Shown here in pieces: positions 3,579-17,794 of a stretch of 35,833 nt of DNA (position 1 is the first letter of the stretch; the number at the start of each line of letters is the position of its first letter). The notes under the pieces were generated by a model. That model ran no database searches, was not told where the DNA came from, and saw nothing but the letters and a program-made list of their open reading frames with translations. The stretch is taken from assembly GCA_009379735.1 (NCBI GenBank), contig WHTB01000009.1, forward strand, positions 1 to 35,833, read 5' to 3'. The position numbers and the translations under genes are program-made. The DNA is from Propionibacteriales bacterium (GTDB lineage Bacteria; Actinomycetota; Actinomycetes; Propionibacteriales; Nocardioidaceae).

Positions 3579-3602
3579 AAAGGTTAACCATATTTTTAGA
3601 AA
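3571..3602. promoter_or_regulatory. dyad operator between regulator and doxX
   Basis: TTTCTAA (3571-3577) and TTAGAAA (3596-3602) are inverted arms around a central GGTTAACC palindrome (3582-3589). The site is strikingly AT-rich for this genome. It covers the -10 and likely start site of the doxX promoter and ends just before its AAAGGTGG ribosome site. The natural candidate ligand is the divergent winged-helix regulator; that link is inferred from position. Confidence 0.6.
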
Positions 3603-8824: not shown

Positions 8825-9301
8825 ATGGCTGCTGCCGCTCGTGCGCTGCGACCGGTCTCCACCGCACCGCTGCCGGAGGCTGCCCTGACCGCGCTGACCC
8901 GAGCCCGGGAGGCGCTGACCGAGGCGGCGATGAGCGCCGAGCCGACCCGGCGCTATGCCGCGGCTCATGTCGCCGCCCTGCGGGCAACGGCTGCCCTGCT
9001 CTCGGTCCGCACTCGGCCGAGTCGACGTGGCGCCCAGCGCAACGCCTGGACGTTGCTGGCCCAGGTGGCGCCCGAGATGGGGGAGTGGGCGAGCTTCTTC
9101 TCTGCCGGTGCCGGCAAGCGCGCGGCCGCCGAGGCCGGTCTGGACCGGCAGGTGTCGACCCGCGACGCCGACGACCTGGTGCGCGACGTCGAGCGATACC
9201 TCTTCCTGGTGCAGCGCGCGCTGGGCGTCCCGTACCAGCCGTCGCTGCCGACGTCGGCGCCGCTGCGCGAGCCTGGCGGCGCCGGCGCGGAGGCGAGCTG
9301 A
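8825..9301 (+). CDS. SAV_6107-type HEPN domain protein
   Basis: The 158-residue, largely helical protein resembles the SAV_6107 HEPN family. Helices include ALTALTRAREALTEAAMSAEPTRRYAAAHVAALRATAALL and later ARDADDLV-type segments ending in RDVERYLFLVQRALG. HEPN proteins are often nucleases or nucleotide-binding partners. The common RxxxxH catalytic motif is not evident, so activity is uncertain. GAGGGGGCGGCG precedes ATG 8825. The gene shares the SOS-controlled transcript with DUF6504, and the downstream methyltransferase starts after an 88-nt gap. Confidence 0.7.
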   Translation: MAAAARALRPVSTAPLPEAALTALTRAREALTEAAMSAEPTRRYAAAHVAALRATAALLSVRTRPSRRGAQRNAWTLLAQVAPEMGEWASFFSAGAGKRAAAEAGLDRQVSTRDADDLVRDVERYLFLVQRALGVPYQPSLPTSAPLREPGGAGAEAS

Positions 9302-11599: not shown

Positions 11600-11651
11600 G
11601 GTCGCATGGCCGCGCATAGTGGCCGTCGGGTGAGGCGAAGTGGAGGACACG

Positions 11652-12092
11652 GTGCCGCTCTCCGAGGAGGAGCAGCGACTGCTCGCAGAGCTGGAGCAGG
11701 CGCTCGCAGCGGAGGACCCGAAGTTCGCGTCCGCGCTGCGCGGGTCGAGCATGCGTTCACGTCAGCGCCGGATCGCGATCGCTGCCGGCGGCGCGTTCTT
11801 GCTGGGCATCGCCTTGCTGATGACCGGCGTCATCTTGCCGGTGACCGTCGTGAGCGTCGTGGGCTTCGTGATGATGCTGGCCAGCGCGTACATCGCCCTC
11901 ACCGCCTGGCGCAAGAGCAACCAGCCCGAGCCGCTCCGGCTGGTCGGGTCCGACCCGCAGGCTCAGCCGGTCAGCAGCCGGGGGCGTGACCGGTCCCGGT
12001 CACGAGAGCGCGCGTCCCGGTCGGCGAGCTCGTCGTCGTTCATGGAGCGGATGGAAGAGCGCTGGCGTCGTCGTCGCCAGTCTGGCTTCTGA
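11652..12092 (+). CDS. DUF3040 family membrane protein
   Basis: The product begins VPLSEEEQRLLAELEQAL, the conserved N-terminal helix of DUF3040 proteins. Two membrane segments follow (about residues 40-58 and 62-80) and then a Ser/Arg-rich cytoplasmic tail. Function is unknown. GTG 11652 is chosen because GGAGG (11642-11646) is 5 nt upstream and family members start with PLSE; GTG 11640 would add four residues. Length is 146 residues. The gene is convergent with the moxR operon. If the transglutaminase frame is read through its amber stop, the two genes overlap by 53 nt. Confidence 0.85.
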   Translation: MPLSEEEQRLLAELEQALAAEDPKFASALRGSSMRSRQRRIAIAAGGAFLLGIALLMTGVILPVTVVSVVGFVMMLASAYIALTAWRKSNQPEPLRLVGSDPQAQPVSSRGRDRSRSRERASRSASSSSFMERMEERWRRRRQSGF

Positions 12093-12306
12093 TCGGCCGC
12101 TGCGCGTTCCACCGTCGGTAGGCCGCGGGCAAGGACCGGGGCAGCAGTGCGGCCCGCACCCTGTCCGCCCGCACCTCGCGCCGATGCAGGGTGTCGGTGA
12201 CCGTCTCCGTGTCGGCCCGCAGCTGGGAGATGTCACCCGGCGCCCGCGCGAAGCGCGCCCGTTCCACCATGATCGCCACCCGCTGCAGCGCGTTGCCGGC
12301 CGGCTA
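12040..12306 (-). pseudogene. C-terminal continuation of the transglutaminase frame beyond an in-frame TAG
   Basis: The frame of the transglutaminase gene has TAG at 12306-12304 and then stays open for 88 codons to the stop at 12042-12040. The downstream part reads PAGNALQRVAIMVERARF, later ADRVRAALLPRSLPAAYRRW. This looks like the end of TgpA-type proteins (an ERARY/F helix and an ALLPRSL segment) rather than noncoding sequence. Either the gene carries a nonsense mutation that removes this tail, or the amber codon is read through. Confidence 0.65.
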
Positions 12307-14367
12307 GTCGTGCGCCAGGATCGGCTGGAGGGCGGCGGCCGTTCGACGCGGTGTGTCGTCCGGCCAGGAGTGCCGGAGGTCGATGACGGTGTCACGCAGC
12401 TCTGCCCACGCAGCCTCGGCCAGCTCACGGGCGTCGCCGGCACGTGCCCAGCGGCGCCGCCGCAGGCCGACCCGCGACAGGCCCGGGATCGCGGCGAGCA
12501 CCAGGATCACCCCGCCGGCGAGGAGCAGTCCGCGTCCCCATTGCCCACCCGAGTCGGACGCGGCGGCCGCTCCGGGGTCGGCCTCGCGCTCGGGCAGCGT
12601 CGGCGACGTCGTCGGTGACGCGCTGGCGGACGGGCCGGCCGTCGCGTCGGGGTCGTCGGCACCGATGTCACCGGTGCTGTAGGAGGGGGCGACGGCGCCG
12701 TCACGGGCGCCCGGCGTGGGCTCGAAGCGCACCCAGCCCGCGCCCTCGAAGTACAGCTCGGGCCAGGCGTGCAATGCCGCCTGGGTGTAGGTGAAGCGGC
12801 CGCCTCCGGCGGACTCGGCGCGTAGGAAGCCGACCGCGACGCGGGCAGGGATCCCGGCATGTCGAGCCATCACGGCCATCGCGGCCGAGAACTGCTCGCA
12901 GTACCCACGCCGATCCTCGATCAGGAACGCCACCAGGTCGTCGTCGCTGTGCCCGGTGGGCGCGTCCAGGGTGTACTCGAAGTCGCCGCCCTCGCGGAAC
13001 CACATCTGCAGCCTGACCGCCTTGTCGTACCGGGTGCCGGTGCCGGTGATCTGGTCGGTGAGGTCCTCCACCTCGGGCGGGAGGTCGTCGGGCAGATCCG
13101 TGTAGGCGTTGGTGATTCTGGCCGGTGCGCCGGTCGACTCCAGCAGGTCGCGGGCGTTCGGCTGGGCCAGCACCGACGTGACGCTGTAGGACAGGCCCTC
13201 GGTGTCCAGGTCCTCGTCGCCGACGACGATGTCCATCGTCTCGGGGTTGTACCGCCAGTCGCTGCCGACGTCGACCTCGCTCGGAGCGTACGGCGCCGGC
13301 AGCCAGTCGGTCCGGAAGCCGGAGGCGAGATGGACCTCGAAGTCCTGGGTACGGCGGTCGACCTCGTCGTCGAGACCCGGCGGCGGCACCAGCGGCTGGT
13401 CGACGCTGAACTGCGTGCCGAGCCGTCGTGCCGACGCCGACCAGCGTCGACCGTCGAACTTGTCGAGGGCGACCATCCGGAAGTACTGCGGCGGGGGGCC
13501 GTCGGTCGTCACGGTCATCGCCGGACGGGTCGACTGCTCGGTCAGGTCGCGTTTCAGGTCGATCATCGGGTTGCTGACGTTGACCCGTCCGCCCCCACCG
13601 GGACCGGTGCCGGTGCCCTGGCCGAACAACCCGTCGGGGAACTGCGGCAGCAGCAGCGGCACGGCGGCGGCCGCCACGATCGAGATGACGCCGACCCGTT
13701 GCGCCGCCGCGTTGAAGGTGCTGCTGGTGATCCGGCGCTGCGCCTGCTCGGATCGAATGCCGTCGGAGACGAGCTGGCGGCCCCAGTGGCCGAGCCGGCT
13801 GCGCTCGTCGGAGGCCAGCAGCAGCACGAACCCTGCGGCGCCGACCACGAACGCCATCGTCGGGACGCCGTCGGGCGCCACGGCGGCCGGGACGGTGTAG
13901 AGGGCGAGCAAGGGGAGGCCGGTCAGCGGCACCCGGTGCAAGGTGGCGGCGAACAGGTCGACCAACAGGTGGCACCCGGCGATCCCGAGCACGACCAGCA
14001 CCAGCAGGCCGCCGGTCGCCGGTGCCGGTGGTGGCTCGGACCTGGCCGACTCGAGGCCGGCCTCGAGCAGCAGCCGGATCGACTCGGCCGACTCGCGGGT
14101 CGGGATCAGGCCGAGGATGGCGCCGTCGCCGTACACCGCGGTCAGCCAGACCACCAGCGCGACCACCTGCCCGGTGAGCACGGCCCAGGGCGGCAGCCGC
14201 GAGGACCGGAGGGCGATCCCGACGCCCACCGGCATGGCGGTGATGACCAGTGCCGCCATGACGTACCCGAAACCCTGGAGCAGGGGCGCGAACGCCAGGG
14301 CGCAGGCCAGCGTGGTCGCCCACGCCAGCAGGGCCAGCCTGGCCTCGCCGCTGAGGCGGCCCGTCAT
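12304..14367 (-). CDS. TgpA-like transglutaminase-domain membrane protein, ended by an in-frame amber
   Basis: As annotated to the first stop the protein has 687 residues. An N-terminal block of about six membrane segments (14-240) is followed by an extracytoplasmic domain. The transglutaminase core has Cys490 in RRGYCEQFSA, His533 in ALHAWPELYF and Glu549 in GWVRFEPTPG. A further membrane segment is at about 610-630, with a cytoplasmic tail after it. Related proteins pair with MoxR and DUF58 genes and probably act on cell-envelope proteins. ATG 14367 overlaps the DUF58 TGA (ATGA). The tail of the family continues in frame past the TAG at 12306-12304; the full frame would give 775 residues. 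Confidence 0.88.
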   Translation of the reverse strand: MTGRLSGEARLALLAWATTLACALAFAPLLQGFGYVMAALVITAMPVGVGIALRSSRLPPWAVLTGQVVALVVWLTAVYGDGAILGLIPTRESAESIRLLLEAGLESARSEPPPAPATGGLLVLVVLGIAGCHLLVDLFAATLHRVPLTGLPLLALYTVPAAVAPDGVPTMAFVVGAAGFVLLLASDERSRLGHWGRQLVSDGIRSEQAQRRITSSTFNAAAQRVGVISIVAAAAVPLLLPQFPDGLFGQGTGTGPGGGGRVNVSNPMIDLKRDLTEQSTRPAMTVTTDGPPPQYFRMVALDKFDGRRWSASARRLGTQFSVDQPLVPPPGLDDEVDRRTQDFEVHLASGFRTDWLPAPYAPSEVDVGSDWRYNPETMDIVVGDEDLDTEGLSYSVTSVLAQPNARDLLESTGAPARITNAYTDLPDDLPPEVEDLTDQITGTGTRYDKAVRLQMWFREGGDFEYTLDAPTGHSDDDLVAFLIEDRRGYCEQFSAAMAVMARHAGIPARVAVGFLRAESAGGGRFTYTQAALHAWPELYFEGAGWVRFEPTPGARDGAVAPSYSTGDIGADDPDATAGPSASASPTTSPTLPEREADPGAAAASDSGGQWGRGLLLAGGVILVLAAIPGLSRVGLRRRRWARAGDARELAEAAWAELRDTVIDLRHSWPDDTPRRTAAALQPILAHD

Positions 14368-15692
14368 GACCCACCTCGCGCGACCCGGGCGCCCTGGGCG
14401 CGCACCTGGTCGGCCGGCAGGTTGATCAGCCCACCGCGCAACGGCCGGAGCAGCTGCGCCCACAGCGTCGCGACGCGGTCCTGCGGCTCGGCCAGCGTGA
14501 CCCGCCAGCCGTTGGCGCGCAGCTCGCCGACGGTGCGTTCCATCCGTTCCTCGATGTCGGCCCGCTCGGGCGAGCCGGGCCGCAGCCAGCCGGTGATGTC
14601 GACGACGATCGCATAGCCGGCGACCGATCCCTGGGCCAACCGGCGGACGGCGGCGAGGTCGCGCTGCTGGAGCAGGCCGACGATCGCGACGATGACGCCG
14701 CTGCGGTCCTCGCGGTTGCGCGGGAGCTCGAGGGACTCGCGGTCACTGGCCTCGATCACGGCCAGATGGTCGAGCAGGTCCTCGGTGTCGCCGACGGATC
14801 CCGACCCGCGGTCGTGCCACTGGCCGACCGGGTCGTCGCCGGACTCGCTGACCAGCCGCAGGGCGTACCCGTTGCGGGCGAGATGGACGCCGATGGACGC
14901 GGCGGCGGTGATCATCCACTCGAACGACGAGGCCGGTCCGCTCCCTCGGTGCGCGTTCTCGCGGGTGTCGATGATCAGCGTCGCGCGGCTCTGGAACGGC
15001 TGCTCCTCACGGCGCACCATCAGCTCGCCCATCCGTGCCGACGACGGCCAGTGCACCCGCCGCAGGTCGTCGCCGTCGCGGTACTCGCGGACCGTGACGT
15101 CCTCGGCGCCGGCGGCGGCGAAGGCCCGCGGCCGGTTGTCGCCGGTGCCGGACCACTCGCCGCTGAGCTGGCCGTCCGGCAGCGGCTGCACCTCCGGCGT
15201 CACGGTCAGGGTGTTGCGGGCCTGGAAGGCCCGGGTCAGCTCGATCAGCCCGAACGGGTCGCTGATCCGGATCCGCAACGGCCCGATCGTGAAGCGCCCG
15301 CGCACGTCGGACCGGACGGTGTAGCTGATCTCGCGCCGCCAGCGCGGCCCGACCTCGTCGAGCACGAACCGCGGCCTGGTGCCGAGCACGTACGGCACCT
15401 GGTCCTCGACCAGCACCAGGTTCGACGGCATCCGGCCACGGTTGTCCAGCGAGAGGGTGACCCGGGTCGGTTTGCCGACCGGGATGCGCGACGGGTTGAT
15501 GGTGCGGAAGCAGGACAGCCGGTAGCGCGCGCGGCTGATCATCAGCACGGTGACCATCGGCAGCAGCAAGACGAGGATGCCGATCCGCAGCAGGTCCTTC
15601 TGCCCGAGCACCATCGAGCAGAACAGGCAGGTCAGCCCGGCGGCGACGAAGGCGCGACCTCGGGTCGTCAGGGCGGACAGCGAGTCACGCAC
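14364..15692 (-). CDS. DUF58 domain protein
   Basis: The 442-residue product has two N-terminal membrane segments (about 13-30 and 36-52). A beta-rich region follows, then the DUF58 signature YRDGDDLRRVHWPSSAR at 204-220, the start of a von Willebrand-like fold. MoxR ATPases and DUF58 proteins work together, perhaps as a chaperone system for envelope or metal-dependent proteins. GTG 15692 lies 6 nt after the moxR stop. The 3' end overlaps the transglutaminase start by 4 nt, so the three genes form one translationally linked operon. Confidence 0.9.
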   Translation of the reverse strand: MRDSLSALTTRGRAFVAAGLTCLFCSMVLGQKDLLRIGILVLLLPMVTVLMISRARYRLSCFRTINPSRIPVGKPTRVTLSLDNRGRMPSNLVLVEDQVPYVLGTRPRFVLDEVGPRWRREISYTVRSDVRGRFTIGPLRIRISDPFGLIELTRAFQARNTLTVTPEVQPLPDGQLSGEWSGTGDNRPRAFAAAGAEDVTVREYRDGDDLRRVHWPSSARMGELMVRREEQPFQSRATLIIDTRENAHRGSGPASSFEWMITAAASIGVHLARNGYALRLVSESGDDPVGQWHDRGSGSVGDTEDLLDHLAVIEASDRESLELPRNREDRSGVIVAIVGLLQQRDLAAVRRLAQGSVAGYAIVVDITGWLRPGSPERADIEERMERTVGELRANGWRVTLAEPQDRVATLWAQLLRPLRGGLINLPADQVRAQGARVARGGS

Positions 15693-15698
15693 CGTGGG

Positions 15699-16730
<1,032 letters not shown>

Positions 16731-17544: not shown

Positions 17545-17794
17545 CCTCCAGCACGCGACCTCAGACCGTCGTACGACGAGGTCTCCCGCCCGCTCCCGAC
17601 AGGTCATCTGACACACCTTCCCCGGTGGCAGAGGGCCACTCCCCGAACCGAGCGGGCGGAGACCTGGCCGTACGAAGGCCAGCAGGTCGCCCCCACCCGC
17701 AGCAGCGCGACAACGCACGAGCAGCACCCATGACCGGGCCCGCGAAGCCCGGTCCCGCAGTTTCCACACCGCAGCACCGTTCGAGGGGGTCGAG
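17545..17794 (+). ncRNA. structured leader upstream of rsmH, candidate mraW RNA motif
   Basis: The gap between mraZ and the small ORF is dense in hairpins. GACCTC/GAGGTC is at 17558-17583 and GTGGC/GCCAC at 17625-17639. GACCTGGCC/GGCCAGCAGGTC is at 17661-17688, and a perfect 8-bp GACCGGGC/GCCCGGTC stem with loop CCGCGAA is at 17732-17754. A conserved cis-acting mraW RNA motif has been described upstream of mraW (rsmH) in actinobacteria. Position and structure fit, but I cannot check the consensus here. Confidence 0.45.

Follow-up and report, generated by a model that had tools for sequence, protein, structure and literature searches.

An in-frame TAG ahead of the conserved C-terminal tail of a TgpA-like transglutaminase gene in a Propionibacteriales genome

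TgpA of Pseudomonas aeruginosa is a membrane protein with an extracytoplasmic transglutaminase domain, for which a triad of Cys, His and Asp is given; its cytoplasmic tail lay outside that study (PMC3507681). The TgpA-like proteins of actinobacterial MoxR-DUF58-TGM operons combine PF11992 with PF01841 and often carry PF13559 (DUF4129) as well. In-frame stops inside prokaryotic genes are widespread and mostly short-lived, and the cases supported by Belinky et al. were common to two or more species (Belinky et al. 2021, PMC7918605).

The gene described here lies in a window of 35,833 nt, the whole stretch of DNA analyzed, from contig WHTB01000009.1 of the Propionibacteriales bacterium GCA_009379735.1, a draft assembly of 483 contigs. 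In domain order, operon, catalytic Cys/His/Glu motifs and tail, it is like the actinobacterial operon genes, and its product resembles P. aeruginosa TgpA as a membrane protein with an extracytoplasmic transglutaminase domain, although the window family has Glu, within an FEPTP motif, where the Pseudomonas triad has Asp. In contrast to the other actinobacterial proteins, its tail is cut off by an in-frame TAG, whereas the tail is continuous in 29 of 30 aligned relatives. As in the cases collected by Belinky et al. (PMC7918605), the stop sits inside an otherwise conserved gene and is likely to be short-lived; unlike their supported cases, it is found in a single genome, and it fits the short-lived, single-genome class of in-frame stops.

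The interrupted gene and its tail

The TgpA-like gene (12040-14367, minus strand) is the third of an operon in the order MoxR, DUF58, TgpA. It follows a MoxR-type AAA ATPase gene (15699-16730, minus strand; PF07726, 1.4e-63) and a DUF58 gene (14364-15692, minus strand; PF01882, 5.3e-13), the latter overlapping it in an ATGA. The gene is single copy and has homologues in all 58 relatives. Its assignment to the family rests on TgpA_N (PF11992, 9.3e-58) followed, in order, by Transglut_core (PF01841, 1.8e-24), and on the catalytic motifs: GYCEQ from residue 488, HAWPE from 533 and FEPTP from 548, in which the catalytic Cys and His and the acidic residue of FEPTP are invariant columns in 27 relatives. 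A continuous cytoplasmic DUF4129-like tail is lacking in the window gene, where the tail is there and cut by the TAG; this tail is an accessory part of the family, with DUF4129 recognized in 12 of the 27 relatives.

From the ATG at 14367-14365, the frame runs to a TAG at 12306-12304 (codon 688), and a product terminated there would have 687 residues. The frame then stays open for 87 sense codons, up to the natural TGA at 12042-12040, so that tail and TGA together span 12040-12303. An earlier note on this DNA had reported an in-frame TAG in the TgpA-like gene of the MoxR operon, followed by 88 open codons, with Cys490, His533 and Glu549 all ahead of the stop and a continuation resembling the normal C-terminal tail of the family. 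The sequence bears out the TAG and the open frame, the count being one codon too many; the three catalytic motifs do precede codon 688, and the continuation does align with the tails of relatives and keeps their conserved residues.

Taken alone, the open frame behind the TAG is within chance: 25% of base shuffles are as open, and 27% of the stops in the window (as stop-to-stop intervals) have at least 87 open codons behind them. The homology of the tail is beyond chance. With the TAG entered as X, the C-terminal 136 residues find matches in 50 of 58 related genomes, and the nearest relative (G003) is 57% identical across the TAG. When the gene is aligned with 30 homologues, the TAG falls at a variable position of a linker, where the relatives have various sense codons; all 29 continuous homologues have a sense codon there, and a single-base codon change would account for the TAG. 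Downstream of it, the invariant or near-invariant Arg, Pro, Ala and Ser of the tail are all kept, and the first 70 tail codons have a GC3 of 0.93, like the gene body. For the final 17 codons, the conservation seen between the window and the nearest relative is probably due to their overlap with a convergent DUF3040 gene (11640-12092, plus strand; PF11239, 3.2e-25) that is placed likewise in that relative. The 3' ends of the two genes overlap by 53 bases (window 12040-12092), as they also do in the nearest relative.

Compared with outgroups, the tail has a mean identity of 0.344 in the window and 0.380 in the nearest relative, with the upstream regions equal or higher in the window; this lower tail identity could reflect a slight relaxation, one that amounts to two or three residues measured against outgroups that are not independent. 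At a dS of 0.7-1.1, the window and its nearest relative are too far apart for the TAG to be dated in this way. Since the tail has not decayed, either the event is recent, or the base is wrong, or the tail is still made.

Relatives and the reading of TAG

Homologues ending at the same place, which the earlier note had asked to be looked for, were sought among the 30 aligned sequences, the relatives flagged by a wider profile search and one order-level case; none was found. The profile search covered 295 genomes of the same family and found the gene in 287. Among the matches listed, 17 relatives were flagged as having a stop inside the match, and all 17 sequences were inspected. None has a stop before the tail: each ends naturally, after the conserved Pro-x-Ser near the tail end, and was flagged because the profile match overshot the natural gene end. 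The order-level case is likewise a natural end. A naturally short version of the gene was thus rejected, since the flagged stops all proved to be natural and the position of the TAG ends none of the homologues examined. Of all the sequences examined, only the window has a stop before the tail. The window genome is the sole representative of its genus in the comparison, and neither an allele nor an error is shown in a second genome. Searches of viral contigs and plasmids for a further copy of the locus gave nothing useful.

One relative departs from the continuous pattern in a different way. In the single-contig genome G032 (L036, about 3590-3600), a one-base deletion lies in the same linker and leaves the conserved tail in another frame; this would be another truncation, independent of the first, or else an error beside a G run, a homopolymer.

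TAG is an ordinary stop codon in the window genome. It ends 53 of 315 long, high-GC3 open reading frames in 730 kb of the genome (TGA ends 249 and TAA 13), and three proteins with an RF-1 domain are encoded. A CTA anticodon is absent from the 32 tRNAs named by ARAGORN; there are 33 tRNA matches, the 33rd being weak and not recognized by ARAGORN as a tRNA gene. Reassignment of TAG is ruled out by its use as a stop, by the RF-1-domain proteins and by the failure to find an amber suppressor tRNA. Within the window, ARAGORN also names a tRNA-Thr (cgt) at 17631-17708, between mraZ and mraW, which has no Rfam tRNA match above the cut-off and is probably false.

Two scans covered other split genes. 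The homology scan compared open reading frames from 565 kb of the nearest relative with 730 kb of the window genome, about a sixth of it and genes with a relative in the sample, and gave 132 non-overlapping alignments of 43,861 residues. Besides the window TAG, no gene-splitting stop was found in these residues, where the remaining stops mark the ends of genes or belong to upstream extensions or antisense frames; nor is there an interrupting stop in 130 ABC-transporter domain matches. The genome is therefore not full of pseudogenes or substitution errors, which leaves room for a single base error. A codon-usage scan, less sensitive than the homology scan since it missed the TAG in the window, returned 26 frame pairs separated by a stop. 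Fifteen of these were inspected and turned out to be separate neighboring genes or antisense frames. Another TAG candidate, on contig C61 near 13617, proved to be where a dcd-like gene begins, with an antisense frame ahead of it.

Nonsense allele, base error and other readings

We consider it very probable that the TAG stands alone as a nonsense codon and that the TgpA-like gene is normal in other respects. Either a one-codon nonsense allele would have arisen recently in the strain, or the consensus base would be wrong in the draft. We lean towards a genuine allele, through which the strain or population makes a tail-less, still anchored protein that retains the catalytic residues. The deletion in the same linker of G032 suggests that loss of the tail may be tolerated, although that deletion may itself be an error beside the G run; the slightly lower tail identity to outgroups points the same way, with the limits given above; and in-frame stops are common in bacteria. 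Against this, the invariant residues of the tail indicate that it is normally under constraint. A sequencing or assembly error, with a true sense codon and a normal full-length protein, is a serious contender, if somewhat short of an even chance. It is consistent with the fragmented draft, with a stop confined to one genome among those compared and with the intact frame and conserved residues of the tail, but the background is low, with no other gene-splitting stop in the homology scan and none in the ABC-transporter domains. Of the two explanations that the earlier note offered, the recent nonsense allele is thus well supported, with base error as a near-equal rival, and programmed readthrough giving two forms of the protein has no positive evidence in its favor.

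Such readthrough, with a short and a long form, would require an intact homologous tail behind the stop, and that tail is present; it is, however, equally expected from a recent event. The stop is conserved in none of the homologues examined, no suppressor tRNA was found, and the stretches of 60, 90 and 150 bases that follow the TAG are no more stably folded than shuffled sequence (z of +0.8, +1.7 and +0.9), all of which makes readthrough very unlikely. A lineage-specific leaky amber codon that tunes the share of TgpA-like protein carrying the cytoplasmic helical domain is more doubtful still; if true, one form would be the enzyme alone, and the other could interact with the MoxR and DUF58 partners. 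Separate production of the tail by reinitiation, from the GTG at 12279 or the ATG at 12270, is just as improbable: the TAG is followed by these start codons at a distance of 24-33 bases, but the fragment would have neither the membrane anchor nor the initial helix turns, and the arrangement occurs in no relative of the alignment. That TAG stands for an amino acid in this genome is next to inconceivable, given its stop usage, the release-factor genes and the missing CTA tRNA; moreover, no other gene-internal TAG was found, and the inspected cases of a stop followed by an open frame are separate neighbors or antisense frames.

Predicted consequences and meaning

If the TAG of the preferred nonsense allele is real, we infer that translation ends there and that the change is recent. 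The resulting protein of 687 residues would keep the membrane helices and the extracytoplasmic transglutaminase-like domain, and would lack the later helices of the cytoplasmic DUF4129-like domain. The extent of this loss can be gauged from an AlphaFold2 model of the intact cytoplasmic region of the homologue in the nearest relative, built from a 29-sequence alignment (mean pLDDT 89.5). The model has seven predicted helices (residues 3-18, 22-39, 49-60, 64-82, 89-105, 109-117 and 120-135), and the TAG column corresponds to residue 64, between helices 3 and 4 and the first residue of the fourth helix. A product ending at the TAG would, according to this model, lose four of the seven helices, and with them the invariant Arg81 and Pro119 (cytoplasmic-region numbering).

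By sequence, the tail has no match among solved structures. The predicted DUF4129-like domain (model of L033:3388-3840, the homologue of window 12040-12490) resembles helical bundles of the HEPN fold. VIA-align ranks HEPN or HEPN-like entries highest (2hsb, Z 7.5, rmsd 3.8, 106 aligned; 2q00, Z 6.6; 3o10, Z 6.4), at a Foldseek E of 0.6 and with Z values below about 13, which can mean mere helical-bundle similarity. Elsewhere in the window, a SAV_6107-like HEPN gene (8825-9301; PF18726, 3.6e-34) adjoins a methyltransferase gene and a DinB-type polymerase gene.

If the case is an ordinary one, it is a further example of a bacterial gene with a premature stop close to its 3' end. It also carries a caution, in that, where the genome is GC-rich, a frame that stays open behind a stop is poor ground for inferring readthrough. 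If the allele is real, the strain would be a natural tail-less mutant, and could help to show the role of the cytoplasmic DUF4129-like domain of TgpA-like proteins.
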